Assembly (NCBI RefSeq): GCF_011764445.1 | Contig: NZ_BLPG01000001.1 | Location: 5,766,001-5,830,000 of the forward strand | Source of the DNA: Phytohabitans rumicis | Lineage (GTDB): Bacteria > Actinomycetota > Actinomycetes > Mycobacteriales > Micromonosporaceae | DNA: 64,000 bases | Direction of reading: 5' to 3' | In this document: positions 43,659 through 60,006 of the stretch, in pieces | Layout: each line of letters starts with the position of its first letter | How positions within the stretch are numbered: position 1 is the first letter of the stretch | Made by a program: the position numbers and the translations under genes | The notes under the pieces: model-generated | The model's database searches: none | Told to the model about the DNA's origin: nothing | What the model saw: the letters and a program-made list of their open reading frames with translations, nothing else

Positions 43659-43702
43659 TCCTTTTTGGAGCTGGTGGTTAGTCCGATGTAGACATCTGAG
43701 GC

Positions 43703-43732
43703 TTGAGGCGAGGCTCACGGCGTTGCTAGGGT
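43703..43732 (+). promoter_or_regulatory. possible promoter of the conservon
   Basis: TTGAGG at 43703-43708 and TAGGGT at 43727-43732, spaced by 18 bases, lie about 40 bases before the cvnA start. The match to sigma-70-type elements is moderate. It would let the conservon be transcribed apart from the diterpene operon that ends 115 bases upstream of cvnA. Confidence 0.35.
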
Positions 43733-43773
43733 GCCCGGGTCACTCACCCTCACCGTCGGTTGGGACTGGTGCG

Positions 43774-46158: not shown

Positions 46159-46580
46159 TGGTGCAGACGACAAGCTCCGTCGGTGACCTGGCGTGGTTGC
46201 TGGACGATCTGGTCGAACGGGTGGCGGAGGTCAAGCAGGCCGTCGTCCTGTCTGCCGACGGCTTACTCATCGCCGCGTCCCGCGACCTGAGTCGTGAGGA
46301 CGCGGAGCATCTGGCCGCGGTCGCGTCCGGGTTCCAGAGCTTGGCTCGGGGCGCCGGGCGGCAGTTCCGGGGCGGCAACGTGCGCCAGACCATCATCGAG
46401 ATGGACACCCTCTTCCTCTTCGTGACCGCGGCCGGCCAGCGCGCCAACCTCGCCGTACTCGGCACCGAGGAGTCCGACGTCGGACTCGTCGCGTACGAGA
46501 TGGCCATGCTCGTCACCCGCGTCGGCCAGTACCTGACGACGCCGTCGCGGTCCACCGTGAGCTCGCCCGACGGGAGGTGA
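46158..46580 (+). CDS. cvnB: conservon roadblock/LC7 protein CvnB
   Basis: A 140-residue roadblock/LC7-fold protein: LAWLLDDLVERVAEVKQAVV, LSADGLLIAASRDLSREDAE, HLAAVASGFQSLARGAGR and LGTEESDVGLVAYEMAMLV. In conservons CvnB associates with CvnA and probably modulates the CvnD GTPase, like MglB with MglA. GTG at 46158 shares a base with the cvnA stop; GTG at 46161 is equally possible. Confidence 0.92.
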   Translation: MVQTTSSVGDLAWLLDDLVERVAEVKQAVVLSADGLLIAASRDLSREDAEHLAAVASGFQSLARGAGRQFRGGNVRQTIIEMDTLFLFVTAAGQRANLAVLGTEESDVGLVAYEMAMLVTRVGQYLTTPSRSTVSSPDGR

Positions 46581-46583
46581 CCG

Positions 46584-46970
46584 ATGGATTCCACCGCGGC
46601 GCCAGACGAGGACATCTGGCACGACGACGAAGCCGGGCCGGTCGTCCGGCCATACGCGATGACCCGCGGTCGGACCGCGCCCGCCCGCGGCGAGTTTGAC
46701 CTGATCTCGCTGGTGGTGGCCACGCGCTCGGTGCCGTCCATCGCGGCCGGGTTGCAGCCCGAGCACATCACGATCATGCGGCTGGCCCAGCGTCCACTGT
46801 CCGTGGCGGAGGTCGCCGGCCACCTGACCCTGCCGCTCGGCATCGTCCGGGTGCTGCTCGGCGACCTGCTCGACAAGGGCTACATCCTGGCCCGGGAGCC
46901 GCAGCCGGCCACCCACATGCCACCAGAGCGAATCTTCAAGGCGGTGATCAATGGGCTCCGCTCTCTCTGA
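46584..46970 (+). CDS. cvnC: conservon DUF742 protein CvnC
   Basis: A 128-residue DUF742 protein with an acidic N-terminus, the box GPVVRPYAMTRGRTAPA and a winged-helix-like part (HITIMRLAQRPLSVAEVAGH, VRVLLGDLLDKGYILAR). It ends with MPPERIFKAVINGLRSL. The exact biochemical role in the conservon is not established. It starts four bases after cvnB and overlaps cvnD by 20 bases. Confidence 0.92.
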   Translation: MDSTAAPDEDIWHDDEAGPVVRPYAMTRGRTAPARGEFDLISLVVATRSVPSIAAGLQPEHITIMRLAQRPLSVAEVAGHLTLPLGIVRVLLGDLLDKGYILAREPQPATHMPPERIFKAVINGLRSL

Positions 46971-47547
46971 GACCTTCCCGGAGGGCGACCCCAACCTGCC
47001 CATGGCGATCAAGGTGCTGATCGCGGGCGGCTTCGGTGTCGGCAAGACCACGATGGTCGGGGCGGTCAGCGAGATCCGCCCGATGCGCACCGAGGAGGTC
47101 ATCACCGAGGCGAGCGTGGGCGTCGACGACACCTCCGGTGTCGAGACGAAGACCACGACCACGGTGGCCATGGACTTCGGCCGGATCACCATCTCCGACG
47201 AGGTCGTGCTCTACCTGTTCGGTACGCCGGGGCAGGATCGCTTCTGGTTCGTGTGGGACGAGCTGGCGCTGGGCGCGGTGGGCGCCGTGGTGCTCGCGGA
47301 CACCCGGCGGCTGGCGGCCAGCTTCCCGTCCATCGACTACTTCGAGCGCCGGGGCACGCCGTTCATCGTCGCGGTGAACTGCTTCGACGACGCCCCGAAC
47401 TACCAGGTCGACGACGTCAAGCTCGCCCTCAACCTGGACCCGGATGTGCCGCTGTTGTTGTGTGATGCACGCCAGGCTAAGTCGGGCAAAGAGGTGCTTA
47501 TTGCCCTCATGGAGCACGCCATGAAGAAGGCTGGCGTCCCAGCTTAG
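46951..47547 (+). CDS. cvnD: conservon GTPase-like protein CvnD
   Basis: A 198-residue small P-loop NTPase of the MglA/CvnD type. Walker A is KVLIAGGFGVGKTTMVGAV, switch II is LYLFGTPGQDRFWFVWDEL, and the base-recognition region is FIVAVNCFDDAPNY (NCFD in place of NKxD). It should act as the nucleotide switch of the conservon. The N-terminal start GTG/ATG at 46951 lies inside cvnC. A hairpin follows eight bases after the stop. Confidence 0.93.
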   Translation: MGSALSETFPEGDPNLPMAIKVLIAGGFGVGKTTMVGAVSEIRPMRTEEVITEASVGVDDTSGVETKTTTTVAMDFGRITISDEVVLYLFGTPGQDRFWFVWDELALGAVGAVVLADTRRLAASFPSIDYFERRGTPFIVAVNCFDDAPNYQVDDVKLALNLDPDVPLLLCDARQAKSGKEVLIALMEHAMKKAGVPA

Positions 47548-47650: not shown

Positions 47651-47670
47651 TTGCCGGAACGTTCCGGCAA
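47651..47670. promoter_or_regulatory. perfect 20-bp palindromic operator upstream of amine oxidase
   Basis: TTGCCGGAACGTTCCGGCAA is an exact palindrome. It covers the predicted transcription start and lies 10 bases before the GAGGAG ribosome-binding site. A dimeric repressor bound here would block the operon. No helix-turn-helix regulator gene is adjacent; the GntR protein at 62588 is the only DNA-binding candidate nearby but its likely sites look different. Confidence 0.6.
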
Positions 47671-47691: not shown

Positions 47692-49632
47692 GTGCGCACG
47701 CTCGGCCCCGGAGAGCGCCCCCACCCACTGGACCCGCTCGGCCCGGAGGAGATCCTCGCGGTCCGGGAGATCCTCGCCGGCGAGGGCGTCTTCACGGAGT
47801 CGACGCGGGTGGCGTACCTCGGTCTGGAAGAGCCGCCCAAAGCGGAGGTCCTCAAAACCGCGGGCAGTAAGCGCCGAGCCCGGGCCTTCCTCCTCGACCT
47901 CGCCACCGGCGAGGGCGAGGACGTCGTCGTCTCCCTGACCGACCGCCGGGTCGACGCGCGCACCGTGCTCGACCCGGTCAAGGACGGGCAGGTGCCGCTT
48001 CTCACCGAGGAGCACGGCCTCGTCCGCCGCGTCCTGCGCGAAGACGCGGGCTGGATCGCGGCCCTCACCCGCCGCGGGATCGAGCCCGATCAGGTGTACG
48101 TCGCCGCGCTCACCGCCGGCCACTACGACCTGCCGCACGAGGAGGGCCGGCGGGTGGTCCGCGTGCTCGCGCATCTCCAGCCGACCCCCGACAGCCTGCC
48201 GTGGGCGTACCCGATCGACGGCCTGGTGGCCTACGTCGACCTGGTCAAGGGCGCGGTACTGGAGATCGTCGACACGGGCGTTCTGTCCGTTCCGTCCGAG
48301 TCCGGTGATTACCATGATCCGGAAGTGTTCGGTCCGCGGCGCACGACGCAGCGGCCGATCGAGATAACGCAGCCGGAAGGACCCAGCTTCACCGTCGACG
48401 GCAACCTCGTCACGTGGGAGAAGTGGAGCCTGCGGCTGGGGTACGACATGCGCGAAGGGCTCGTCCTGCACCAGATCGGCTTCGACGACGCCGGGCGTAC
48501 CCGGCCGGTGGTCTACCGGGCTTCGGTGGCCGAGATGGTCGTGCCGTACGGGGACCCGAGCCGGGTGCGCTTCTGGCAGAACTACTTCGACACCGGGGAA
48601 TACCAGCTCGGCAAGCTGGCCAACGCCCTCGAACTGGGCTGCGACTGCCTCGGCGACATCACCTACTTCGACGCCACGATCGCCGGGGACGATGGGGCGC
48701 CCCTCGTCCTGAAGAACGCGATCTGCATGCACGAAGAGGACTACGGCGTGCTGTGGAAGCACACCGACCCGGCCAACGGCTCGCGGGAGACCCGGCGCCA
48801 GCGCCGCCTGGTGATCTCGTTCTTCGTCACGGTCGGCAACTACGACTACGGCTTCTACTGGTACCTGTACCTCGACGGGACGATCGAGCTGGAGGTCAAG
48901 GCCACCGGCATCGTCTTCACCGGCGTGTACGACGAGCGGGCCGCGCCGTACGGCTCGCAGGTGGCGCCGGGGCTGGCGGCGCCGTACCACCAGCACCTGT
49001 TCAGCGCCCGGCTGGACATGACCGTGGACGGCGTGGCCAACGCGGTCGACGAGGTCGACGTCGTGACCCGCCCGATGGACGCGGCCAACCCGTACGGCAA
49101 CGCCTTCGGCCGCGCGATCACCCGGCTGCGCACCGAGAGCGAGGCCCAGCGGGACGCGGCCGGCAGCCGCGACCGCACCTGGCACGTCGTCAACCCGGCG
49201 GTCCGGAACAGGCTGGGCCAGCCGGTCGGCTACGCCCTCTTCCCCCAGGACAAGCCCACCCTCCTCGCCAGCGAGGGGTCGTCCGTCCGCCGCCGGGCGG
49301 CGTTCGCCACCCGGCATCTCTGGGTCACCCGGTACGACCCGAGCGAGCGCTACCCGGCCGGCGACCTGGTGAACCAGCACCCGGGCGGCGCCGGGCTACC
49401 CCGCTACGCCGCCGCCGACCGCGACATCGACGGCCAGGACATCGTGCTCTGGCACACGTTCGGGCTCACCCATTTCCCGCGGCCGGAGGACTGGCCGGTC
49501 ATGCCCGTCGACACCTGTGGATTCACGCTGCGCCCGGTCGGGTTCTTCGACCGCAACCCGACGCTCGACGTCCCCCGACCACGGCCGGCTGCTGTGGCGG
49601 CTCCTCCTGCCAGTGCCCCCATTAGGAGATGA
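47692..49632 (+). CDS. copper-containing primary amine oxidase
   Basis: A 646-residue topaquinone amine oxidase that converts primary amines to aldehydes with release of NH3 and H2O2. The TPQ precursor is Tyr384 in the consensus NYD of VTVGNYDYGFYWYLY. The catalytic base Asp lies in WQNYFDTGEYQLG, and two copper His are in YHQHLFSARLD; the third is expected in LWHTFGLTHFPR. The numbering is close to that of Arthrobacter phenylethylamine oxidase. There is no signal peptide, so it is cytoplasmic. GTG at 47692 has GAGGAG at five bases. It is the first gene of a nine-gene operon. Confidence 0.95.
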   Translation: MRTLGPGERPHPLDPLGPEEILAVREILAGEGVFTESTRVAYLGLEEPPKAEVLKTAGSKRRARAFLLDLATGEGEDVVVSLTDRRVDARTVLDPVKDGQVPLLTEEHGLVRRVLREDAGWIAALTRRGIEPDQVYVAALTAGHYDLPHEEGRRVVRVLAHLQPTPDSLPWAYPIDGLVAYVDLVKGAVLEIVDTGVLSVPSESGDYHDPEVFGPRRTTQRPIEITQPEGPSFTVDGNLVTWEKWSLRLGYDMREGLVLHQIGFDDAGRTRPVVYRASVAEMVVPYGDPSRVRFWQNYFDTGEYQLGKLANALELGCDCLGDITYFDATIAGDDGAPLVLKNAICMHEEDYGVLWKHTDPANGSRETRRQRRLVISFFVTVGNYDYGFYWYLYLDGTIELEVKATGIVFTGVYDERAAPYGSQVAPGLAAPYHQHLFSARLDMTVDGVANAVDEVDVVTRPMDAANPYGNAFGRAITRLRTESEAQRDAAGSRDRTWHVVNPAVRNRLGQPVGYALFPQDKPTLLASEGSSVRRRAAFATRHLWVTRYDPSERYPAGDLVNQHPGGAGLPRYAAADRDIDGQDIVLWHTFGLTHFPRPEDWPVMPVDTCGFTLRPVGFFDRNPTLDVPRPRPAAVAAPPASAPIRR

Positions 49633-49636
49633 TTTC

Positions 49637-51247
49637 GTGCGCCACCCCCTTTTGACCGGCGGCGTCGTGGCCGCTCTGCTCGCCACTTCGGCCTGTTCGG
49701 CCCCGCCGGCGTCCGCGCCGGCCACGAGCAACACCAAGCCGGGGTACGTCTCCGTCGTCGACGAGAAGCTGCCGTCCGGCGGCACGTTGAGTTTGGAGTT
49801 GCCCCTCGACATCGCCGGCGCGACCGGGTTCGACCCGCAGGTGGCGGACGTCGCCTCGTCCTGGCAACTGCTCTCCCTGGTGTACGAGACGCTGGTCACC
49901 GTCGGCGCCGACTTCTCGGTGCAGCCGGCCCTCGCCGAGAGCTGGGAGACGCCGACCCCCACCACGTACGTCTTCCACCTGCGCGAGGGCGTGAAGTTCT
50001 CGAACGGGCGGGCGATGACCGCGGACGACGTGGTCGGCAGCCTCAAGCGGCTGCTCGCCTCGCAGTCGGTGTGGCGGGGCCAGCTCGGACCGGTCAAGGA
50101 CGTGACGAAGACCGACGACAAGACGGTCACCGTCACGCTGTCCGAGGCGTACACGCCGTTCCTGGCGGCGCTGGCGAACGTCCCGGCCGCGATCCTGCCG
50201 ATGAAGGAGATCGACGACAAGTCGGTGGACATCACGAAGGCGATGCTCGGCACCGGCCCGTTCAAGGTCTCCGCCCACCGCCAGGACGTGTCGTGGAGCT
50301 TCGCCCGCAACGACCAGTACTGGGCGTCCGGCAAGCCGTCGCTGGCCGGCGTCGAGGTGACGATCGCGCCGGAGGAGGCGGCCCGGGTCGCCTCGCTGCA
50401 GAACGGCAAGGCGTCCGTCGCCACGCTCGGCAACGTCGACTCCCGCACCATGCTGGCCGGGGCGTCCAATGTGGAGGTCCTGACCCAGGCGACCACCGAC
50501 TTCTACTACCTGATGCTCAACACCCAGGCGCCGAACTCGAAGTTCGCCGACCCGCGGGTGCGCAAGGCCATCAACATCGCCACCAGCCGTACCCGGATCG
50601 CGGACATCGCGCTCGGCGGCCAGGGCAAGGCGACGGCCGTCACCCCGGTCGGGCTGCCCGGCTCCTGCGACCCGGCGAAGCTGCCGTCGGCGACCGCGAG
50701 CCAGGACGAGGCCAAGAAGCTGCTCGCCGAGGCGGGCGCGCCGGACCTGACGTTCAAGCTGAGCATCTTCGCCACGCAGCCGGCGCCGGCGGTGGCCCAG
50801 GTGATCCAGCAGGACCTGCAGCAGGTCGGCATCAAGGTGGAGATCGAGCAGATGGACGAGGCGAGCTGGGCCGGCAAGGTGTACGGCGCGGCGCCGGCCA
50901 CCTTCGACGCGGCGCTGTCCTGGTTCGCGGGGTACGCCGACCCGGGCATGGTCACCAAGTGGTGGAACCCCGACGTGTCGTTCTTCAACAAGGGCTTCAT
51001 GAAGACCGACGCCGGCCTGAGCGGGCTGATCGACGCGGCCAACAAGCTCCCGGTGGGCGGCCAGCGGGACGCGGCGCTGGCCCAGGTCTGCACGAAGGTC
51101 GACGAGGACGCCCAGATGATCCCGCTCGTCACCCGGCCGTCCACTGTGGCCCTCCGCACGGACGCGGCGAGCGTGAGCCTGTACGCCGTCGAGGGGTACG
51201 GCAACCCGCTGCGGCTGCTGTCCGACTTCCGCAAGCCGGCGGCCTGA
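49637..51247 (+). CDS. Opp/Dpp-type ABC transporter substrate-binding lipoprotein
   Basis: A 536-residue family 5 solute-binding protein. The lipoprotein signal MRHPLLTGGVVAALLATSAC has its lipobox Cys at 20. The body has LAESWETPTPTTYVFHLREG and VKFSNGRAMTADDVVGSLKR, GTGPFKV, FADPRVRKAINIA and KLLAEAGAPDLTFKL, all usual for peptide, nickel or oligosaccharide binders. The ligand cannot be read from the sequence. GTG at 49637 follows AGGAG and lies four bases after the amine oxidase stop, tying import to amine oxidation. Confidence 0.92.
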   Translation: MRHPLLTGGVVAALLATSACSAPPASAPATSNTKPGYVSVVDEKLPSGGTLSLELPLDIAGATGFDPQVADVASSWQLLSLVYETLVTVGADFSVQPALAESWETPTPTTYVFHLREGVKFSNGRAMTADDVVGSLKRLLASQSVWRGQLGPVKDVTKTDDKTVTVTLSEAYTPFLAALANVPAAILPMKEIDDKSVDITKAMLGTGPFKVSAHRQDVSWSFARNDQYWASGKPSLAGVEVTIAPEEAARVASLQNGKASVATLGNVDSRTMLAGASNVEVLTQATTDFYYLMLNTQAPNSKFADPRVRKAINIATSRTRIADIALGGQGKATAVTPVGLPGSCDPAKLPSATASQDEAKKLLAEAGAPDLTFKLSIFATQPAPAVAQVIQQDLQQVGIKVEIEQMDEASWAGKVYGAAPATFDAALSWFAGYADPGMVTKWWNPDVSFFNKGFMKTDAGLSGLIDAANKLPVGGQRDAALAQVCTKVDEDAQMIPLVTRPSTVALRTDAASVSLYAVEGYGNPLRLLSDFRKPAA

Positions 51248-51254
51248 CACCGCC

Positions 51255-52181
51255 ATGCGCCTCGCACTGTGGTGGTCCGGCCGGCTGCTGAGCTCAGCGG
51301 TGACGCTGCTCGGCGTGTCGATCCTCATCTTCGTCGCGCTGCGGCTCATGCCGGGCGGCTTCGCCGAGACCATCCTCGGGCCGTTCGCGACGGCGGAGCA
51401 GAAGGCCGAGATGGCGCAGCGGTACGGCCTGGACCAGTCGGTGCTCGCGCAGTACGGGCACTGGTTGTCCGCCGCGGTCGGCGGCGACTTCGGTACGTCG
51501 ATGATCAGTCGCGAGCCGGTGGCGTCGGAGCTGTGGGCGCGCCTCCCGGTGACCGCGCGGTTGACCGGTTTCGCGGTGGCGCTGGCGCTGCTGCTCGGCG
51601 TGCCGCTGGGCGTCCTGACCGCCGTACGGGCCCGGCCCGGCGGCGGCGGGGCGCTCGGCCGGCTCGCCAGCGGGCTGGGCGTGAGCGTGCCGGAGTTCGT
51701 GCTGGGCAGCCTCGTGGTGTTCCTGTTCTCCCGCTACGTGCCGGGGATCCCGGTGAGCGGATCCGTCGTGCTTCCCGGCATCGTGCTGTCCCTCTTCGCC
51801 ATCTCGGTCACCGCCCGCACCACCCGGGACGCGGTGTTGGGCGTGCTGGTCGAGCCGTACATCACCGCGGCGGTGGCGCGGGGCGAGTCACCGTGGTTCG
51901 TCATCCGGCACCACGTGCTGCGCAACGCCGCCGCCCCGGTCGTCACGCTCACGGCGACCATCGCGGCGTACCTGCTCGGCGGCGCGCTGGTCGTCGAGTA
52001 CGTGTTCAACCTCCCCGGGATTGGCTCGTACGTGGTGCAGGCCGTGGGCCGGCGCGACTACGCGGTGGTCCAGGCCGGTGTGCTGCTCGCCGCGACCGTC
52101 TTCATCACCCTCAACGCCCTCGTGGACCTGTTGGTCGGGCTCATCGATCCGCGGCTTGCCACCCGCCGGAGGACCGCATGA
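51255..52181 (+). CDS. ABC transporter permease (DppB type)
   Basis: A 308-residue permease with six helices. It has the usual opening LLSSAVTLLGVSILIFVALR and an early periplasmic loop containing AQRYGLDQSVLAQYGHWL. The EAA-like coupling loop is EPYITAAVARGESPWFVIRH. The late helix region is VVEYVFNLPGIGSYVVQAV. It pairs with the next permease, whose ATG overlaps its stop. Confidence 0.92.
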   Translation: MRLALWWSGRLLSSAVTLLGVSILIFVALRLMPGGFAETILGPFATAEQKAEMAQRYGLDQSVLAQYGHWLSAAVGGDFGTSMISREPVASELWARLPVTARLTGFAVALALLLGVPLGVLTAVRARPGGGGALGRLASGLGVSVPEFVLGSLVVFLFSRYVPGIPVSGSVVLPGIVLSLFAISVTARTTRDAVLGVLVEPYITAAVARGESPWFVIRHHVLRNAAAPVVTLTATIAAYLLGGALVVEYVFNLPGIGSYVVQAVGRRDYAVVQAGVLLAATVFITLNALVDLLVGLIDPRLATRRRTA

Positions 52182-53002
52182 GACGACTCCGCTTGGATTG
52201 GCTCTCCTGGGGCGGGCTCGGGTGCCTCGCCCTCCTGGTGGTCTTCGCGCTCGGGTCCACTGTGCACCTCGCCGGTGACCCGGACGCGATCGTCGGCCCG
52301 CGCCTGCAACCACCCGGTCCACAGTGGTGGCTGGGCACCGACAACCTGGGGCGGTCGATGCTGCCCCGCGTCATGGAGGGCGTCGGCACCACGCTGCTGC
52401 TCTCCTCGACCGCCGTGGTGCTCACCGCGGCGCTCAGCGCGGGCCTGGGCATCCTGGCCGGGTATCGCGGCGGCTGGGTCAACGAGGTGGTGTCGCGCCT
52501 GGTCGAGGTGCTCTACTCGTTTCCGGCCATCGTGCTCGCCGTGCTCGTGGCCGCGGTCGCCGGCCCGGGTCAGCTCGCCGCGCTTGCCAGCATCGTGCTG
52601 GTGACCATCCCGCTGATGACCCGGCTGGTGCGCGCCGCCGCTGTGGGCGTCTCCCAGCGCGACTACGTCACCGCGGCGGTCATCAGCGGCGCCCGCCTGC
52701 CCCGCATCCTCGGCCGCCACGTGCTGCCCAACGTCGCCGGCACGGTCGCGGTGCAGGGCACGTACGCGCTGTCGGTGGGCATCGCGGTCGAGGGCGGGCT
52801 GAGCTTCCTCGGGCTCGGCGTACAGCCGCCGCAGGCGTCCCTCGGCGTGCTGATCCAGCAGGGCGGCACGTACATGATCGCGGCCCCGTGGCTGATCGTC
52901 GGGCCGGGTGTCGTGCTGGTGCTGGCCATCCTCGCCATCAACGTGGTCGGCGACGGGCTGCGCGACCGGCTGGAGCCCAAGGAGACGAGGTCGCTGACAT
53001 GA
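52178..53002 (+). CDS. ABC transporter permease (DppC type)
   Basis: A 274-residue permease. The start MRRLRLDWLSWGGLGCLALL is followed by WWLGTDNLGRSMLPRVMEGV, a DppC hallmark. The coupling loop is QRDYVTAAVISGARLPRILG and the closing motif is GLSFLGLGVQPPQASLGVLI. ATG at 52178 overlaps the upstream permease stop and its own stop overlaps the first ATPase gene. Confidence 0.93.
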   Translation: MRRLRLDWLSWGGLGCLALLVVFALGSTVHLAGDPDAIVGPRLQPPGPQWWLGTDNLGRSMLPRVMEGVGTTLLLSSTAVVLTAALSAGLGILAGYRGGWVNEVVSRLVEVLYSFPAIVLAVLVAAVAGPGQLAALASIVLVTIPLMTRLVRAAAVGVSQRDYVTAAVISGARLPRILGRHVLPNVAGTVAVQGTYALSVGIAVEGGLSFLGLGVQPPQASLGVLIQQGGTYMIAAPWLIVGPGVVLVLAILAINVVGDGLRDRLEPKETRSLT

Positions 53003-53942
53003 TGAGCACCCTGCTGGCGGTGGAGAACCTCGCGGTGGACTACGCGGCGCGTGACCGCGTCGTACGCGCGCTCGACGGCGCCGACCTGGCCGTGGCGGCG
53101 GGGAGACCGTGGGCATCGTGGGCGAGAGCGGCTCCGGCAAGTCCACCCTGGGCGCGGCCATCGGCGGTCTGCTGCCCCGCACCGCCCGGTACGCCGAGGG
53201 TGCGATCCGCGTCGCCGGGGAGTCCATCGTGGACCTGCCGGCGGCGCGCCTGCGGCGGCTGCGGCGCGAGCGGCTCGGCTTCGTGTTCCAGGACCCGATC
53301 GCCTCCCTCGACCCGACGATGCGGATCGGCGCACAGCTCAAGCTGGTGCTGGGCAAGGGCGGGGACCCACTGTCGCATCTGGACCGCGTCCGGCTGGCCG
53401 ACCCGCGGCGGGTCGCCCGGTTGTACCCGCACCAGCTCTCCGGCGGCATGGCGCAGCGGGTCGCCATCGCTATCGCGATGGCGAAGGAGCCGGAGCTGCT
53501 GGTCGCGGACGAGCCGACCGCCGCGCTGGATTCCCAGGTACGCCAGGAGGTGCTGGACGTCGTGTTCACGCTCGCCGCCGCGGCGGGCACGAGCATCGTC
53601 TGGCTCAGTCACGACCTACCCGCCGTGGCCCGGCGGTGCGGCCGGATCGCCGTCATGTACGCCGGCCGGGTCGTGGAGGAGGGGCCGGCGAAGGAGGTGC
53701 TGGGCCGGCCGGCGCACCCGTACACGGCCGCGCTGGCCCGTTCGGTGCCGGCCGGTACGGCCTACGGCACCCGCCTCGTGCCGGTGCCCGGCCGGCCGCC
53801 GGTGCTGACCGGCCGCTCAGCCGGTTGCGGGTTCGCGCCGCGGTGCTCGTTCGCCGTGGAGCGCTGCACCACCGAGCGCCCGCCGCCGGTACGCGTCGAC
53901 AGCCAGTTGGTGCTGTGCCACCGGGCGGGAGACCTCTCGTGA
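52999..53942 (+). CDS. ABC transporter ATP-binding protein (DppD type), frame broken at about 53101
   Basis: The first 34 or so residues (MMSTLLAVENLAVDYAARDR to ADLAVAAG) are in one frame. A G4 run at 53100-53103 then breaks it just before the Walker A motif. With one added G the sequence reads AAGETVGIVGESGSGKSTLG and continues through VFQDPIASLDPTMRIGAQLK, the signature HQLSGGMAQRVAIAIAMA, Walker B LLVADEPTAALDSQVRQEV and a C-terminal Cys-containing oligopeptide domain (GCGFAPRCSFAVERC). As read, only a fragment from an internal ATG at 53109 would be intact. The stop overlaps the next ATPase gene. Confidence 0.88.
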
Positions 53943-54673
53943 CCCTCGAACTGGACGGCGTGATGGTCACCTTCTCCTCCGGCCTGCCGCCGCGGCGCCA
54001 CGTGGTGCGCGCGCTCAACAACGTCTCTCTCCACGTCGGTACGGGCGAGACGCTGGGCCTGCTCGGCGAGTCCGGCTCCGGTAAGACCACGGCCGGGCGG
54101 GTCGCGCTCGGCCTCCAGCGCCCCGCGTCCGGCGCCGTACGCTTTGAGGGCCGCCCCTTCCCGAAGCGGCGGCGCCAGCTGGCCGGGCGCATGCAGGCGG
54201 TGCTCCAGCATCCACATTGGTCACTCAATCCGCGGATGCGGGTGGGGCAGAGCGTCGCCGAGCCGGCGGTCATCCTCGGCGGCCGGGCGGACGGCGTGCC
54301 CGACATGCTGGAGCGCGTCGGCCTGGAGGCGGCCCTCGCCACCCGATACCCGCACGAGCTGTCCGGCGGCCAGCAGCAACGCGTGTCCATCGCCCGCGCG
54401 CTCATCACGCAGCCGCGGTTCATCGTCTTCGACGAGGCGGTCAGCGCGCTGGACGTGTCGGTGCAGGCGCAGATCCTGAACCTCATCAAGGACCTGCAGG
54501 CTGAGTTCGGCTTCAGCGCGCTGTTCATCTCGCACGACCTCGGGGTGGTCCGCTACGTCGCCGACCGGATCGCGGTCATGCGCGGCGGCGAGGTGGTCGA
54601 AACGGCCGACACCGAGACGTTTTACACCGCTCCGACCCACGAGTACTCGAAGAAACTGTTGGAGGCACTATGA
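53939..54673 (+). CDS. ABC transporter ATP-binding protein (DppF type)
   Basis: A 244-residue ATPase. Walker A is LGLLGESGSGKTTAGRVALG, the Q-loop region VLQHPHWSLNPRMRVGQSV, signature HELSGGQQQRVSIARALI and Walker B FIVFDEAVSALDVSVQAQIL. DEAVSALD differs slightly from the common DEPTSALD. It is shorter than typical DppF because the C-terminal peptide-transporter extension is short. It starts with GTG at 53939, overlaps the DppD-type gene by four bases and is coupled to the peptidase gene (ATGA). Confidence 0.92.
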   Translation: MTLELDGVMVTFSSGLPPRRHVVRALNNVSLHVGTGETLGLLGESGSGKTTAGRVALGLQRPASGAVRFEGRPFPKRRRQLAGRMQAVLQHPHWSLNPRMRVGQSVAEPAVILGGRADGVPDMLERVGLEAALATRYPHELSGGQQQRVSIARALITQPRFIVFDEAVSALDVSVQAQILNLIKDLQAEFGFSALFISHDLGVVRYVADRIAVMRGGEVVETADTETFYTAPTHEYSKKLLEAL

Positions 54674-55644
54674 GCGCACCCCGGCTCGCGACCGCGTCGG
54701 CTTTCGCGCCCGGCGTACCCAGCAACGCCGACCTGGCGTTGACGCCGCTGCGCAGCCCTGGGCACGGGGTCGTCGCCTTCGACATCCCGGGCGTGTACGT
54801 CGGCACCGCCGAGTACGCCGAAGGGCCCACCGGCTGCACGGTCGTACATGTACCCGCGGGCGCGCGGACCGCGGTCGACGCCCGTGGCGGTGCGGTCGGC
54901 CTCAGCGGCGGGTACGACTTCAACCACGCCATCTGCCTGGCCGGCGGCTCGGTGTACGGCCTGGAGGCCGCCGCCGGCGTCAGCGCCGAGCTGCTGGCCC
55001 GCCGGCAGAACAGGGTCAAGTGGGACGAGCTGCAGATCGTCTCGGGCGCGGTCGTATACGACTTCTCCGCGCGCGACAACGCGGTCTACCCCGACGCCGC
55101 CCTCGGTCGAGCCGCCCTGCGCCACGCCGAGGAGGGCTTCTTCCCCATTGGACGGTGCGGGGCCGGGCGGAGCGCGACCGTGGGCAAGGTGGACTTCGCC
55201 CGCGCCGAGTACGGCGGCCAGGGCGCGGCGTTCGGCACGTTCGGAGCCGCCAAGGTGCTCGTGGCGACGGTGCTCAACGCGGTCGGCGTCATCGTGGACC
55301 GGCAGGGCGAGATCGTGCGCGGCAACTACCACCTGTCCGAGGGTGGGCGCCGGCACCCGTCGGTCGACTACGCGGCGAGCGCGTCGGCGGGGGTCTCGGG
55401 CAACACGACCCTCACCGTCCTGGTCACCAACGTCCGGCTGGCTGACCGTGAGCTCAGTCAGCTGGCCCGCCAGGTGCACAGCTCGATGCACCGCGGCATC
55501 CAGCCGTTCCACACCGACACCGACGGCGACGTGCTCTTCGCCCTCACCACCGACGAGGTCGACCTGGACGGGCTGAAGCCGACCGGGTTCGGCGCCCTCG
55601 CCTCCGAGGTCGCCTGGGACGCGATCCTCTGCGCGGCGGAGTGA
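54670..55644 (+). CDS. P1 family (DmpA-type) aminopeptidase/amidase
   Basis: A 324-residue self-cleaving N-terminal-nucleophile hydrolase related to DmpA and beta-peptidyl aminopeptidases. Recognisable parts are VPAGARTAVDARGGAVGLSG, NHAICLAGGSVYGLEAAAGV and GRCGAGRSATVGKVDFARAE. The probable cleavage site is SGNTTLTVLVTNV, with Thr246 aligned to the nucleophile of DmpA (Ser there). These enzymes release N-terminal L-, D- or beta-amino acids from small peptides and amides. Its position after the importer suggests it acts on the imported compound. No signal peptide. Confidence 0.88.
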   Translation: MSAPRLATASAFAPGVPSNADLALTPLRSPGHGVVAFDIPGVYVGTAEYAEGPTGCTVVHVPAGARTAVDARGGAVGLSGGYDFNHAICLAGGSVYGLEAAAGVSAELLARRQNRVKWDELQIVSGAVVYDFSARDNAVYPDAALGRAALRHAEEGFFPIGRCGAGRSATVGKVDFARAEYGGQGAAFGTFGAAKVLVATVLNAVGVIVDRQGEIVRGNYHLSEGGRRHPSVDYAASASAGVSGNTTLTVLVTNVRLADRELSQLARQVHSSMHRGIQPFHTDTDGDVLFALTTDEVDLDGLKPTGFGALASEVAWDAILCAAE

Positions 55645-55647
55645 GGC

Positions 55648-56249
55648 GTGTACGTCTCCCCGCGCTTCCCCGTCGACCCGCGACACGCGGTCGACCTGGT
55701 ACGCCGGCACCCGTTCGCCCTCGTGGTCAGCGCTGACGGCGGCGTGCCCCTGGCCACCCACGCTCCCGTCCTCGTCGAGTCCGCTGTGGACACCTCGTTC
55801 GTCGGCGCTACCCTGCTGGGCCACCTGGCCCACGCCAATCCGCAGTGGCAGGGCTGGGAGCGCGCGCCCGCGGTGCTGGTGGTCTTCGCCGGCCCGCACG
55901 GCTACGTCTCGCCGACCGCGTACCGCACCGATCCGGCCGTCCCGACGTGGGACTACGCGGCCGTCCACCTGACCGGCACGATCGAGGTGATCCCGGACAC
56001 CGGCGGCACGCTCGACGTGGTGGAGCGGACCGTGCGGGCGATGGAGTCGACGCGTACCCCGCAATGGGTGCCCAGCCCTGCGTCGCGCGCGCGGTTCGCG
56101 GACATCGTCGGGGCGTGGTGGCCTTCCGGGTACGGGTGACGGCCGAGCGGAGCGTCTTCAAGCTGAGCCAGGACCAGGACGCCGCGACGCGGGCCCGGGT
56201 CGCGGCGGACGCGCCCCCGGCGTTGGCGCGCCTGATGGAGGACGTGTGA
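55648..56249 (+). CDS. PaiB-like FMN-binding protein, frame broken at about 56111
   Basis: The protein starts MYVSPRFPVDPRHAVDLVRR and has the PaiB motifs LLGHLAHANPQWQGW, VLVVFAGPHGYVSPTAY and VPTWDYAAVHLTGTIEV. As read it ends prematurely at 56139 (GAWWPSGYG). Adding one G to the G4 run at 56110-56113 gives DIVGGVVAFRVRVTAERSVF, then KLSQDQDAATRARV and a stop at 56249. That restores the usual KLSQ C-terminal block and length (about 200). PaiB-type proteins bind flavin; in Bacillus PaiB is linked to regulation of sporulation and protease genes and PaiA to polyamine acetylation. A role here in amine metabolism is inference. Confidence 0.85.
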
Positions 56250-57304
56250 CCTTCCCCGGTTTCGCGTCGTCCTCCGTCCTGCCCTTCTCCCGCGGCCGGG
56301 AGTTCGGGACCGTCTGGCGTGACGAGGTGCGCGCCACCGCTTCGGCGTACGAGGCGCTCTTCGCGGCGCACGGCGGTTGTCCCGCGCGCACGCGTGCGTG
56401 GGCGGAGGAGGCGTTCGCGCGTACGGCCGACTGGGCGCCGCAGCTGGCCGACGAGATGGCCGGCATCGCGTCCGGCTCCGGGCTGGAGACCTGGCGGATC
56501 GCCGCGCTCAACGCCCGTACCGAGATCCTGGCCGCCCTGCGGGTGACCGGCGAGGGCGAATGCTCCACAGTGGTCTGTCTACCCGTGGACGGGCAGGCGC
56601 CCCGCACGATGCAGACGTGGGACTGGCACGACCGCTTCGGCGGCGCCCCGATCCTGTGGTCGTACGACGTACGGCCCGGCCACACCGTGCGCACCTTCAC
56701 CGAGTTCGGCGTGCTCGGCAAGATCGGGGTCAACAGCGCCGGCCTCGGCGCGCACTTCAACATCCTGCGCCACGCCTCGGACAGCGACCGGATCGGCGTC
56801 CCCGTACACCTGGTGGCCCGCCGCATCCTCGACGACGCCCGTACCGTGGCCGAGGCCGCCGACATCGCGCGTTCCGCCCGGCTGTCCGCCTCGACGGTCA
56901 TCACCGTCGTCACCGAGGGCGCCGCCGCGTCGCTCGAGTTGTGCCCGGCCGGCGTGGCCGTGGTGCCCGTGGCCGGTCTGCTCCTGCACACCAACCACTT
57001 CCTCGATCCGTCATTGGCCACGGGGGAGCGGCTGGGCACCGAGCGACCGGGCACGTACGCCCGCCTGGAGCACCTGCGCGACCAGGCGGACGGCCTGGTG
57101 GCGGCCGACCTAACGGCGCGCGCCCGAGCGATGCTGAGCCACGAGGTCGGCGGGCCGGTCTGCGCCCACGCCAACCCGGCCGAACCGTTCCACCAACGCT
57201 GGGAAACCCTCGCCACGATCGCCCTCGACGTCCGGTCGGCCCGCGTGTACGCCCACCGCGGCGGCCCCTGCACCGCCACCCCATCAACCTGGCAACTCTT
57301 CTAA
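56246..57304 (+). CDS. C45 family autoproteolytic acyltransferase/hydrolase
   Basis: A 352-residue Ntn hydrolase related to isopenicillin-N acyltransferase (AAT) and C45 amidases. LNARTEILAALRVTGEGECS leads to the presumed nucleophile Cys106, exposed by self-cleavage before Cys. The typical following parts are QTWDWHDRF, FTEFGVLGKIGVNSAGLGAH and HTNHFLDP. The family cleaves or forms amide bonds of acyl side chains. GTG at 56246 overlaps the restored PaiB-like gene end (56249) by four bases, which supports that restoration. It is the last gene of the operon and is followed by a family A repeat. Confidence 0.88.
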   Translation: MTFPGFASSSVLPFSRGREFGTVWRDEVRATASAYEALFAAHGGCPARTRAWAEEAFARTADWAPQLADEMAGIASGSGLETWRIAALNARTEILAALRVTGEGECSTVVCLPVDGQAPRTMQTWDWHDRFGGAPILWSYDVRPGHTVRTFTEFGVLGKIGVNSAGLGAHFNILRHASDSDRIGVPVHLVARRILDDARTVAEAADIARSARLSASTVITVVTEGAAASLELCPAGVAVVPVAGLLLHTNHFLDPSLATGERLGTERPGTYARLEHLRDQADGLVAADLTARARAMLSHEVGGPVCAHANPAEPFHQRWETLATIALDVRSARVYAHRGGPCTATPSTWQLF

Positions 57305-57452: not shown

Positions 57453-58765
57453 CTAGGTCAGCGCACCTTCGAGCACGTCCAAGCCTTCGGCCAGCAGGTC
57501 GGGCGGTGTGACGAGTGGGGGAGGAAGCGCAGGACGTTGCCGTACGTGCCGGCCGTGAGCGTCAGCAGGCCCTCGGCGTGACACGCCTGGGACACCCGCC
57601 GCGCCAGGTCGGCGTCGGGCTCGACGGTGCCGGGGCGGACCAGCTCGATCGCGACCATGGCGCCGCGGCCGCGTACGTCGCCGATGGCCGGCACCCGCTC
57701 CCGGAGCTTGCCCAACCGGGGCAGCATGGTGTCGCCGATGCGGCGGGCCGCCGCGCACAGGTCCAGTGTGGACATGGTGGCGATCGCGCCGAGCGCCGCC
57801 GCGCAGGCGACCGGGTTGCCGCTGAACGTGCCGCCGAGCCCGCCCGCGTGGACCGCGTCCATGAGTTCGGCCCGCCCGGTGACCGCGCCCAGCGGCAGCC
57901 CGCCGGCGATGCCCTTGGCGGTGATGACGAGGTCGGGCACGACACCCTCGGCGGCGCAGGCGAACCAGTCGCCGGTGCGGCAGAACCCGGTCTGCACCTC
58001 GTCGGCCACGAAGACGGCGCCGCTGGCCCGGCACCAGGCGGCGATCTCGGGCAGGAAGCCGGGCGCCGGCACCACGAACCCGCCCTCGCCCTGGATGGGC
58101 TCGAGCACGACGCACGCCACGTTGGCCGCGCCGACCTGCGCCTCGATCAGGTCGATCGCGCGCCTCGCGGCCTCCGGGCCACTCAGCCCATCCCGGAACG
58201 GGTACGACATCGGCGCGCGGTATACCTCGCCGGCGAACGGGCCGAAGCCGCTCTTGTACGGCATGCTCTTGGCCGTCATAGCCATCGTCAGGTTGGTCCG
58301 GCCGTGGTACGCGTGGTCGAAGACGACGACCGCCGGGCGCCGGGTCCACGCCCGTGCGATCTTGACGGCGTTCTCGACCGCCTCGGCACCGGAGTTGACC
58401 AGGATCGACCGCTTCTCGTGGTCGCCCGGCGTCAGTTCGTTCAGCCGCTCGCAGACCTCGACGTACCCCTCGTACGGCGTGACCAGGAAGCACGTGTGGG
58501 TGAAGGCGGCCGCCTGCGCGGACACGCCGGCGACCACGGCCGGGTCGGAGCCGCCGACGCTCGTCACCGCGATGCCGGAGGCGAAGTCGATGAACGAGTT
58601 GCCGTCCACGTCGACCAGCACCCCGCCGCTCGCGGCGGCGGCGAAGACCGGCAGCACGTGACCGAGCGAGCCCGACACCGCCCGCTGCCGGCGGGCCATC
58701 AGCTCCACCGAGCGCGGTCCGGGCACGGACGTGACCAGCCGGCGCACCTGAGTCAGCTCACCCAT
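57453..58765 (-). CDS. gabT: 4-aminobutyrate/5-aminovalerate-type aminotransferase, frame broken near the 3' end
   Basis: A class III PLP aminotransferase. It has VDGNSFIDFASGIAVTSVGG, ILVNSGAEAVENAVKIAR, FDHAYHGRTNLTMAMT, VVLEPIQGEGGF, FVADEVQTGFCRTG and the PLP lysine in VITAKGIAGGLPLGAVTG, as in GabT/DavT. After RFLP the frame breaks in a G5 run (plus strand 57517-57521) and reads HSSHRPTCWPKAWTCSKVR. With one more base it reads PLVTPPDLLAEGLDVLEGAL and stops at 57453, the expected GabT end. The upstream gene gcdH overlaps its start by eight bases. In this company the substrate is more likely 5-aminovalerate than 4-aminobutyrate, by context. Confidence 0.9.
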
Positions 58766-59930
58766 GGCGGAACGCCGCGATGCCCGTCAGCGCACGGCCG
58801 ACGACGAGGGTATGGATCTCGGCGGTGCCCTCGTACGTCAGCACCGACTCGAGGTTGTTCGCATGTCGCATCACCGGGTACTCCAGCGTGACGCCGCTCG
58901 CCCCGAGGATCGTGCGGCAGGTGCGGGCGACCTGGATGGCCTCCCGGGTGTTGTTCAGCTTGCCGGCGCTGACCTGCTCGGGGGTGAGCGTGCCGGCCTC
59001 CTTGCGCCGTCCAAGGTGGACGGCCAGCAGCAGGCCCTTGCCCAGTTCCAGCGCCATGTCGGCGAGCTTCTCCTGGGTGAGCTGGTACGACGCCAGCGGC
59101 CGGGCGAAGACCTCCCGCTCCCGGGCGTACGCGAGCGCGGTCTCCAGGCAGTCCAGGGCGGCGCCCATCGCTCCGAAGATGATCCCGAAGCGGGCCTCGT
59201 TGAGGCAGCCCATCGGCCCGGCGAGGCCCGTGGCGCCGGGGAGCAGCGCGTCCGCCGGCAGTCGTACGCCGTCCAGCACCAACTCGCTGGTCACGCTCGC
59301 GCGCAGGGACAGCTTGTGCGGGATGTCCCGGGCGGTGAAGCCGGGGGTGCCCGCCGGTACGAGGAAGCCGCGGATCCCGTCGTCGGTGCGCGCCCAGACC
59401 ACCGCGACGTCGGCCACCGACCCGTTGGTGATCCACATCTTGGTGCCGTCGAGCACCCAGTCGTTCCCGTCCCGCTTGGCCCGGGAGCGCATCCCGGCCG
59501 GATCGGATCCGAAATCCGGCTCGGTCAGCCCGAAGCACCCGATGCGCTCGCCGGCCGCCATCGCCGGCAGCCATTCCCGCTTCTGCTCCTCCGAGCCGTA
59601 CGCCCAGATCGCGTACATGGCGAGCGAGCCCTGCACGGACACCAGGCTGCGCAGGCCCGAGTCGGCGGCCTCCAGTTCGAGGCAGGCCAGCCCGTACGAC
59701 ACGGCGCCGAGCCCGGCGCAGCCGTAGCCGTCCAGGTGCATGCCGAGCACGCCCAACTCGCCGAGCTGGCGGGCGAGGTCGCGCGCGGGAATCTGGCCCT
59801 GCTCGAACCACTCGGCCACGTGCGGGCGCACCTCGCGGTCGCACAGCCGGCGTACCGCCTGGCGGATCTCGCGCTCCTCGTCGGTGAGCAGGTCGTCGAT
59901 GCCGAAGAGGGCGGCGGGATGGGTGCTCAT
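58758..59930 (-). CDS. gcdH: glutaryl-CoA dehydrogenase
   Basis: A 390-residue FAD-dependent acyl-CoA dehydrogenase that oxidises and decarboxylates glutaryl-CoA to crotonyl-CoA. It resembles GCDH rather than other ACADs: GLRSLVSVQGSLAMYAIWAY has the substrate-binding Arg, ERIGCFGLTEPDFGSDPAGM binds FAD, and MRHANNLESVLTYEGTAEIH holds the catalytic Glu367. It ends in GRALTGIAAF. ATG at 59930 gives MSTHPAALFGIDDLL. It is the first gene of a minus-strand pair with the aminotransferase, divergent from the aldehyde dehydrogenase operon. Confidence 0.92.
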   Translation of the reverse strand: MSTHPAALFGIDDLLTDEEREIRQAVRRLCDREVRPHVAEWFEQGQIPARDLARQLGELGVLGMHLDGYGCAGLGAVSYGLACLELEAADSGLRSLVSVQGSLAMYAIWAYGSEEQKREWLPAMAAGERIGCFGLTEPDFGSDPAGMRSRAKRDGNDWVLDGTKMWITNGSVADVAVVWARTDDGIRGFLVPAGTPGFTARDIPHKLSLRASVTSELVLDGVRLPADALLPGATGLAGPMGCLNEARFGIIFGAMGAALDCLETALAYAREREVFARPLASYQLTQEKLADMALELGKGLLLAVHLGRRKEAGTLTPEQVSAGKLNNTREAIQVARTCRTILGASGVTLEYPVMRHANNLESVLTYEGTAEIHTLVVGRALTGIAAFRHG

Positions 59931-59952
59931 GGAGCCACTACACCATAGATCG

Positions 59953-59970
59953 AATATTGGATCCAGTATT
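59953..59970. promoter_or_regulatory. operator-like palindrome between gcdH and aldehyde dehydrogenase genes
   Basis: AATATTGGATCCAGTATT is palindromic except for one T/G pair. Its core TATTGGATCCAGTA recurs exactly inside the CoA-transferase gene at 61666-61679. The site overlaps the start of the -35 element of the rightward promoter and lies within 25-40 bases of the gcdH start. It is a good candidate operator for the GntR/FCD regulator encoded at the end of the rightward operon. Confidence 0.65.
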
Positions 59971-59997
59971 GAATAGCCAAGATCCGTGACGTAGTGT
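59969..59997 (+). promoter_or_regulatory. promoter of the aldehyde dehydrogenase operon, likely leaderless
   Basis: TTGAAT (59969-59974) and TAGTGT (59992-59997) are spaced by 17 bases. The ATG at 60007 lies 10 bases after the -10 element, and no ribosome-binding site precedes it. Transcription would therefore start at or within a few bases of the start codon. Confidence 0.5.
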
Positions 59998-60006
59998 CCG
60001 GTAGTC

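Follow-up and report, generated by a model that had tools for sequence, protein, structure and literature searches.

A conserved actinomycete operon joining a NylC-type amide hydrolase to a copper amine oxidase, with a proposed route through glutarate

Analysis of a 64,000-nucleotide window of the genome of Phytohabitans rumicis, a soil actinomycete, confirms that the nine plus-strand genes at positions 47692-57304 form a real operon, headed by a copper amine oxidase and containing an importer and two self-processing Ntn hydrolases, one of them close to NylC. The arrangement is beyond chance, because the whole set is kept together in 12 of 31 other NylC-bearing genomes. On balance, we favor the reading that it serves the dedicated catabolism of a natural aliphatic amide of a five-carbon diamine or omega-amino acid, which would then be oxidized through glutarate. 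The functional unit probably extends past the operon, up to position 62591.

The operon and its two hydrolases

Profile matches place each of the nine gene products in its family. The tight coupling of the original prediction is borne out: all nine genes were located on the plus strand, with intergenic spacings that lie between -4 and 7 nt (in order 4, 7, -4, -4, -4, -4, 3 and -4 nt). The leading amine oxidase gene (47692-49632) is followed by five genes for an Opp-type importer. These specify an SBP_bac_5 substrate-binding protein (49637-51247) with a lipoprotein signal judged by eye, two Opp/Nik-type permeases of the BPD_transp_1 family (51255-52181 and 52178-53002), which score under all curated NCBIfam cut-offs, and two ABC ATPases (52999-53942, with an oligo_HPY tail, and 53939-54673). 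The Peptidase_S58 gene (54670-55644) comes next, and the operon closes with a PaiB-like FMN-binding protein containing the FMN_bind_2 domain (55648-56249) and a C45 self-processing acyltransferase/amide hydrolase (56246-57304). The latter matches the model NF040521 with 236 bits against a cut-off of 85, and its cleavage-site cysteine, which we take to be the nucleophile, is conserved in the window and in every aligned locus.

The S58 protein passes the PF03576 cut-off (65 bits against 23.9) and matches the NylC of PDB 5y0m with 392 bits at 62.9% identity. All seven NylC residues that were checked are conserved in it, namely Thr267, Asn266, Lys189, Asn219 and the trio of Tyr146, Asp306 and Asp308, which are presumably further active-site residues. 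Thr267, directly after Asn266, is the nucleophile of NylC. Asn266, Thr267, Lys189 and Asn219 are named in the available part of PMC6021441. The generic DmpA-type peptidase label that this protein had been given is ruled out by its close relation to NylC: judging from its sequence it is a NylC-type Ntn amide hydrolase, with a predicted self-cleavage at the Asn-Thr bond. Nylon-6 is hydrolyzed in vitro by the NylC of Thermocatellispora tengchongensis, according to the accessible part of the report (PMC10858056), and that enzyme is presumably the product of the gene at our locus L011. Hydrolysis of 6-aminohexanoate oligomers is a putative activity of the window enzyme; the Thermocatellispora relative is the one with a published activity.

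The amine oxidase and a proposed glutarate module downstream

The amine oxidase exceeds the cut-off of NCBIfam NF008559 (891 bits against 651), and its closest solved relative is the phenylethylamine oxidase AGAO of Arthrobacter globiformis (796 bits). The alignment shows that it has in common with AGAO the family, the topaquinone cofactor tyrosine, the catalytic aspartate and the three copper histidines, at positions that we take to be 382, 298, 431, 433 and 592 in AGAO-type numbering. The two differ in the substrate channel, which in AGAO is capped by residues 105 and 358, as stated in the available part of PMC3004256. We picked Phe105 and Leu358 as the specificity mark of the phenylethylamine oxidase; in their place, the window oxidase has His and Pro. 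His at 105 is found in 17/17 cluster oxidases and 0/27 others, and Pro at 358 in 16/17 and 0/27, where the 27 comprise 26 aligned sequences and AGAO, and 26 of the 58 matches, those without a locus, were left out (25 that are 42-52% identical, plus an additional G442 copy). As both channel-cap residues are altered in the cluster enzymes, plain phenylethylamine use was downgraded as a candidate. Ten additional positions also separate the cluster oxidases from the others by the same test, and the change at 105 could therefore stem from common descent alone. Amine oxidases at least 75% identical to that of the window occur in 5 of 296 genomes of the class, its own counted, and all five lie inside NylC clusters.

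Past the operon lie four genes that would make up a glutarate module. A GABA/5-aminovalerate-type transaminase, GabT (57458-58765, minus strand), scores over both cut-offs for 4-aminobutyrate transaminase (NF004714, 719 bits against 639; TIGR00700, 556 against 507). The adjacent glutaryl-CoA dehydrogenase, GcdH (58758-59930, minus strand, start codon approximate), scores 647 bits to 3sf6 and 390 to human GCDH. Against families of other names it first meets acyl-CoA oxidase 4 at 247 bits, and 4w9u, named only as an acyl-CoA dehydrogenase, scores 380. It misses the cut-off of NF045552, glutaryl-CoA dehydrogenase Acd (204 bits against 470), because that model, named GlutCoADH_Des, covers a different branch in our reading. 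On the plus strand are an aldehyde dehydrogenase, ALDH (60007-61452), which scores under every curated cut-off and for which we propose aminoaldehyde or semialdehyde oxidation, and a class III CoA-transferase (61449-62591). The nearest curated model of the latter is of the succinate-glutarate type (SUGCT/GcdG), its best NCBIfam match, NF052585, giving 361 bits against a cut-off of 750; it also scores 307 bits to the succinate-hydroxymethylglutarate CoA-transferase 9br7 and 330 to 10uh, named formyl-CoA transferase. Another GcdH copy, 68% identical, sits elsewhere in the same genome, so that the cluster carries a GcdH of its own. The module is rearranged yet retained among relatives: loci L058-L060 have GabT-ALDH-GcdG-GcdH as a separate block, and in L062 and L063 a LacI gene overlaps GcdG by 4 nt, with GabT-GcdH-ALDH following about 1.3 kb onward.

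Conservation, putative operator and integrity of the locus

Conservation of the set in other genomes had been named beforehand as the test of the proposed system, and the refuting outcome, a set confined to this genome, did not arise. Among the 31 other NylC-bearing genomes, the NylC gene adjoins the importer in 24, a C45 hydrolase in 22 and an amine oxidase in 16, and all nine genes stand together in 12; amine oxidase, NylC and importer co-occur in 16. The count rests on tblastn with the window protein P0007 at a threshold of about 58%, under which L021, L023, L024, L033, L040-L046 and L049 fall outside the 31. Excluded were repeats of the window or of counted loci (L002, L025, L034, L057, L082, L087-L089, L092, L097-L101 and L103; L057 and L007 are one contig) and short copies of L050-L062 (L026-L032, L035-L039, L047 and L048). 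Around the 16 other amine-oxidase loci, of which gene calling covered five (L008, L012, L058, L059 and L062), there are 16 importers, 15 C45 hydrolases, 14 GcdH, 13 GcdG, 12 PaiB-like proteins and 4 GabT. GcdH and GcdG are absent near L011 and L012, and C45 and the PaiB-like protein near L011. Seven Leucobacter and Microcella loci combine importer and NylC, but their examined stretches, short contigs in two cases, contain neither an amine oxidase gene nor glutarate genes. A NylC-like gene lacking the remaining set occurs in seven genomes of the same family.

A perfect 20-nt palindrome, TTGCCGGAACGTTCCGGCAA (47651-47670), ends 21 nt ahead of the first operon gene, and we propose, on the strength of its conservation and of the gene order, that it is the operator of a LacI-type regulator. 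Its 16-nt core has a single copy in the 10.7-Mb genome with up to one mismatch allowed, and is found upstream of the amine oxidase gene in 15 of 16 relatives; the exact 18-mer occurs in 6 of 394 genomes of the class, its own counted, with the cluster at the site in four and without it there in two. Locus L058 has the cluster and no palindrome. The GcdH-ALDH interval of the window has no near palindrome; the two matches with three mismatches correspond to the chance expectation. The LacI-like gene of the genome lies about 1.06 Mb from the operon and is split over two frames; within the 20 kb examined around it there are no members of the set.

In this assembly, frameshifts interrupt two of the nine operon frames, those of ATPase 1 (near 53,100) and the PaiB-like gene (near 56,115), as well as the C-terminal part of the neighboring transaminase (near 57,515); relatives carry longer, uninterrupted homologs of these genes. 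Given the three breaks, the window copy could be decaying, and it is conceivable, though we think it unlikely, that the operon here is a functionless acquired copy, whatever its role in relatives. The split LacI-like gene would fit such decay, as would the absence of NylC from all five same-genus genomes among those listed. Against it, the palindrome is perfect and seven of the nine frames are intact. Moreover, frame-switch signals, counted by a scan that missed the three breaks themselves and used a codon table trained on window genes, number 2 in the 64 kb of the window, 4 in 100 kb of the rest of the genome, 7 and 2 per 60 kb in two congeners, and 0 in 105 kb of five Nonomuraea loci. This distribution leans toward what is expected for assembly errors. 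The ratio of homopolymer 5-runs to 4-runs is 0.215 in the window, 0.194 in samples of its own genome, 0.182 and 0.186 in the congeners, and 0.287 in Nonomuraea.

Candidate pathway and natural substrate

We propose the following route. A LacI-type regulator acting at 47651-47670 would govern the operon, as the conserved palindrome and the gene order suggest, and the importer, placed by family, would have the amide as its ligand. Cleavage of internal aliphatic amide bonds is the role that family membership suggests for the NylC-type enzyme, with a second type of acyl-N bond as the candidate target of the C45 hydrolase. The freed primary amine could then be turned into an aldehyde by the amine oxidase, and the aldehyde into 5-aminovalerate and glutarate via the aldehyde dehydrogenase and the GABA-type transaminase. 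Lastly, the CoA-transferase would form glutaryl-CoA and GcdH crotonyl-CoA; the enzymes are assigned by family, and their joining into one route is our suggestion. The findings fit the original scheme of import, cleavage and amine oxidation, except that the route does not seem to stop at the amine, as the glutarate module at 57458-62591 follows. This module makes a C5 diamine or an omega-amino acid the probable released unit, in place of the beta-alanyl amides or polyamines in general that had been considered.

It is improbable that the imported amide instead contains a monoamine of the aromatic or imidazole kind (phenylethylamine, tyramine or histamine, for example as a beta-alanyl amide). The hydrolases would then release this amine, the oxidase would yield an aryl aldehyde, and the glutarate genes would serve the acyl part or be mere neighbors. 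AGAO as the closest solved relative speaks for it, as does the C45 family, which includes enzymes for beta-alanyl amines such as Drosophila Tan; the altered channel cap speaks against it, GcdH and GcdG recur, and no aromatic-acid catabolic genes were recognized among the scanned proteins, in a scan not aimed at them. We give a similarly low rating to general scavenging of peptides or omega-peptides, in which the importer would take up beta-peptides or ordinary ones, both S58 and C45 would act as broad amidases, and the glutarate genes would belong to adjoining lysine or cadaverine breakdown. An Opp-type importer next to an S58 enzyme is compatible with that, and aminopeptidases make up the DmpA/BapA branch of S58; yet the S58 sequence is close to NylC, the palindrome is single-copy, the cluster has its own GcdH, and a leading amine oxidase gene is without evident function in peptide use. 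Recent adaptation to man-made nylon oligomers, which the 63% identity to NylC and the nylon-6 cleavage by a relative's enzyme could suggest, is extremely improbable and was dropped. The cluster occurs in several genera of actinomycetes, where its proteins share 46-90% identity with those of the window; such divergence is too large to have arisen since nylon was introduced in the 1930s. The end route seems to be C5 (glutarate) rather than C6 (adipate).

The proposed route through glutarate resembles the pseudomonad cadaverine/5-aminovalerate/glutarate route (DavT, DavD, GcdH and GcdG) in that a GABA-type transaminase is encoded next to an aldehyde dehydrogenase, a GcdH and a putative glutarate-type CoA-transferase. 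What sets it apart is the entry step, assigned to a copper amine oxidase, and the link to two Ntn hydrolases and a proposed importer of amides. The original prediction knew of no described pathway with this gene set. The linkage of nylC to oligopeptide-permease genes in Arthrobacter and Agromyces is in print, so that part of the set had been described before (PMC7019077). In the regions of plasmid pOAD2 (Arthrobacter KI72) and Agromyces KY5R a NylC-type hydrolase adjoins an Opp importer as in the window, but an amine oxidase, a C45 hydrolase, a PaiB-like protein, a LacI operator and a glutarate module all go unmentioned in the accessible part of that paper. The 5y0m NylC is 97.0% identical to that of a Microcella metagenome-assembled genome (MAG; L014) and 93.4% to that of Leucobacter L016, both adjoining the same kind of importer. 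A search of a plasmid collection matched 10 records, the best at 76%, with no pOAD2-like record among them, and our literature search found no paper treating a nylonase together with an amine oxidase.

NylC is a leading nylon-degrading enzyme and is often presented as a response to a man-made compound. Its partner genes suggest that the family naturally serves in the use of five-carbon diamine amides; on this view, such a pathway is the home of the enzyme, and its action on nylon would be incidental. The NylC literature examined, as far as available, names no natural substrate. That question becomes testable with a pathway that is conserved on chromosomes and includes an importer, downstream enzymes and a likely site for a regulator, and that points to C5-diamine amides: the operon is a means to probe inducers, and the ligand of the binding protein would name the substrate. 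Natural NylC and C45 partners could also be of use in polyamide recycling.

Desferrioxamines are the best candidate, still putative, for this substrate. Azospirillum and Mesorhizobium loti hydrolyze desferrioxamine amides for use as a carbon (and nitrogen) source, a likeness to our proposal for which the available parts of the reports name no gene (PMC10866069, PMC11800396). It is a doubtful extension that NylC evolved in a pathway for taking up siderophores of the desferrioxamine type, whole or as fragments, and degrading them completely. Aliphatic amides would be cut by NylC and hydroxamates by C45, the PaiB-like flavoprotein would aid with the N-hydroxy group, the amine oxidase and glutarate module would burn the cadaverine, and the plasmid nylon genes would be borrowed from such a pathway. 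Built from (N-hydroxy)cadaverine and succinate, these siderophores are polyamides made in nature and amount to a natural "nylon 5,4".

The nine-gene operon and its NylC-like hydrolase

The operon occupies positions 47692 to 57304 on the plus strand of the window, with successive intergenic spacings of 4, 7, -4, -4, -4, -4, 3 and -4 nt. By Pfam and NCBIfam matches, its genes specify, in order, a copper amine oxidase related to AGAO (the phenylethylamine oxidase of Arthrobacter globiformis), a family-5 solute-binding protein, two Opp/Nik-type permeases, two ATPases, a Peptidase_S58 protein, a PaiB-like protein with an FMN_bind_2 domain and a C45 hydrolase. Frames are broken in the first ATPase, the PaiB-like gene and the C-terminus of the adjoining transaminase, and relatives carry unbroken homologs of these genes. 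A codon-based scan returned two frame-switch signals in the 64 kb of the window, four in 100 kb from the rest of the genome, seven and two in 60 kb apiece from two congeners and none in 105 kb from five Nonomuraea loci. The spread of these signals over this genome and its congeners, and their absence from the Nonomuraea loci, suggests that the breaks in the window may be assembly errors.

The top eleven PDB matches of the S58 protein are all 6-aminohexanoate-oligomer hydrolases, i.e., NylC, with 392 bits and 62.9% identity to the nylon hydrolase of PDB entry 5y0m. Tyr146, Lys189, Asn219, Asn266, Thr267, Asp306 and Asp308 of NylC are all present, and by sequence the enzyme is NylC-like. The PDB NylC is itself 97.0% identical to a protein of a Microcella MAG (L014) and 93.4% identical to one from Leucobacter (L016); in a tree, it pairs with the former (support 100/98) within a Leucobacter/Microcella group. 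At both loci the NylC gene comes after the same kind of five-gene importer, and in Leucobacter a C45 gene comes after NylC; the Microcella contig stops shortly past NylC. Since these close relatives sit behind the same importer type, the plasmid NylC looks like a member borrowed from importer-type operons. The adjacency of nylC to Opp genes in Arthrobacter and Agromyces has already been published (PMC7019077). The NylC of Thermocatellispora tengchongensis is reported to free oligomers from nylon-6, with build-up of the trimer (PMC10858056). Presumably, this is the gene of L011, one of the amine-oxidase clusters.

Several loci depart from the arrangement in the window. In Leucobacter celer (L016:3-12138) there are two neighboring Opp-plus-Ntn units: first ATPases, C45 and PaiB-like genes, after them a LacI-like gene, importer, NylC and C45. 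C45 and PaiB-like proteins can thus accompany an importer where NylC is missing. At L061:9026-11112 (genome G494), a tandem pair of NylC paralogs separates the importer from the C45 gene; a LacI gene lies downstream, and upstream are two palindromes with one mismatch each. On a plasmid of Variovorax boronicumulans (L023:5573-14526), an importer occurs together with a NylC-like protein (53%), an M81 metallopeptidase and another, divergent S58 peptidase, forming a related importer-hydrolase unit in a proteobacterium.

Phyletic spread and the upstream palindrome

A scan of the genome collection recovered 19 loci and a plasmid search 10 records, one of them from Nonomuraea at 76%. Counting the window's own genome, genomes with a NylC match at E 1e-20 number 9 among 300 of the family and 15 among 394 of the class, and at E 1e-40 there are 3 among 396 of the phylum; none of the five other genomes listed for the genus has a match. 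The window NylC shares 76-79% identity with Nonomuraea proteins versus only 56-58% with proteins from the window's family, a pattern which makes its horizontal acquisition likely.

We compared 31 distinct genomes besides that of the window with a NylC of about 58% identity or more (L003-L020, L022, L050-L056, L058-L062). Within the stretches examined, the importer accompanies NylC in 24, C45 in 22 and the amine oxidase in 16, and the full nine-gene set is present in 12. The seven genomes lacking the remainder of the set (L050-L056) belong to a single genus of the window's family; their NylC-like proteins, 56-58% identical to that of the window, have the seven checked residues, and the importer, C45 and amine oxidase of the set were not found near the gene. 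The 16 amine-oxidase loci all have the importer, with C45 in 15 and the PaiB-like gene in 12.

A 20-nt palindrome, TTGCCGGAACGTTCCGGCAA, ends 21 nt upstream of the first gene of the operon. Of 16 relatives, 15 have its 16-nt core ahead of the amine oxidase (the exception being L058). The core occurs once in the window's genome when one mismatch is allowed; when three are allowed, the window has two further matches, about the number given by shuffles. A LacI gene adjoins the palindrome in four of the five amine-oxidase loci with called genes (L008, L012, L059, L062), and the fifth, L058, has neither. The nearest LacI relative in the window's genome is about 1.06 Mb off (70 and 63% over two frames). 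The exact 18-mer is found in six of 394 class genomes, four of which, the window's included, have the NylC cluster. The other two, from another genus, have no NylC match and carry the 18-mer twice beside a LacI-like gene (L093:8954-11208 in G338; L094:9129-10088 in G637), the L093 protein being 41% identical to the cluster LacI. In L093 the neighboring gene in divergent orientation encodes a carbon-nitrogen hydrolase that resembles N-carbamoylputrescine amidase (218 bits against a cut-off of 410), an association which hints at a polyamine-type inducer.

Amine oxidase, glutarate genes and candidate substrates

Amine oxidases of at least 75% identity occur in five of 296 class genomes, the window's included, in each case within a NylC cluster; family members at E 1e-150 occur in 54 of the 296. 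AGAO position 105 is His in all 17 oxidases located in NylC loci and Phe, Leu, Tyr, Val or Met in the 27 others, while Pro is found at position 358 in 16 of the 17 and in none of the 27. By the test used, eleven positions distinguish the two sets, 105 among them, and common descent alone could account for the difference at 105; this position stands out because AGAO residues 105 and 358 are described as shutting the substrate channel over phenylethylamine (PMC3004256). As both channel-closing residues differ from AGAO, the cluster enzyme is unlikely to be a phenylethylamine oxidase.

The genes next to the operon on its right (57458-62591) encode a GABA-type transaminase (GabT) scoring above two curated cut-offs, a glutaryl-CoA dehydrogenase (GcdH; 647 bits to mycobacterial GCDH), an aldehyde dehydrogenase (ALDH) and a class III CoA-transferase (GcdG). 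Among curated models, the last of these matches succinate-glutarate CoA-transferase best, with a score under the cut-off. Among the 16 amine-oxidase loci, GcdH occurs in 14, GcdG in 13 (the L005 contig stops short of it) and GabT in four; GcdH and GcdG were not found near L011 and L012. In Nonomuraea, GcdH and ALDH-GcdG come immediately after C45. L058-L060 have a GabT-ALDH-GcdG-GcdH block in which the aldehyde dehydrogenase is a different one. A LacI gene overlaps GcdG by 4 nt in L062/L063, with GabT-GcdH-ALDH about 1.3 kb on, divergent from the operon. The retention of these genes despite rearrangement argues for a functional link with the operon. A second GcdH, 68% identical, is encoded elsewhere in the window's genome.

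To the observed gene families, their conservation, the palindrome and the residue changes we add a proposed pathway: the importer would take up an aliphatic amide, NylC would cut its amide bonds and C45 a second acyl-N bond, and the freed C5 amine would be oxidized via 5-aminovalerate to glutarate, with glutaryl-CoA yielding crotonyl-CoA. Desferrioxamines fit best as the candidate natural amide, being made of N-hydroxycadaverine and succinate (PMC12161575) and having amide bonds which bacteria are reported to hydrolyze for carbon and nitrogen (PMC10866069, PMC11800396). However, no feature found here connects the cluster with iron, the LacI-type control points rather to a nutrient and the Leucobacter loci are without C5 genes. 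N-acylcadaverines and 5-aminovalerate amides are alternative candidates. Among the open-access papers listed or consulted, neither a description of this gene set nor a natural NylC substrate was found.

On the flanks, a stretch 10-30 kb right of the window (G000:C1:5840001-5860000, L078) has a G+C content of 51.8% versus 69-72% in six other sampled stretches and is possibly a foreign island. Immediately left of the operon (43276-47547) lies an apparent histidine-kinase/roadblock/DUF742/GTPase conservon, judged by eye; the palindrome in L093 also has homologs of its last two genes in the vicinity, probably a coincidence.
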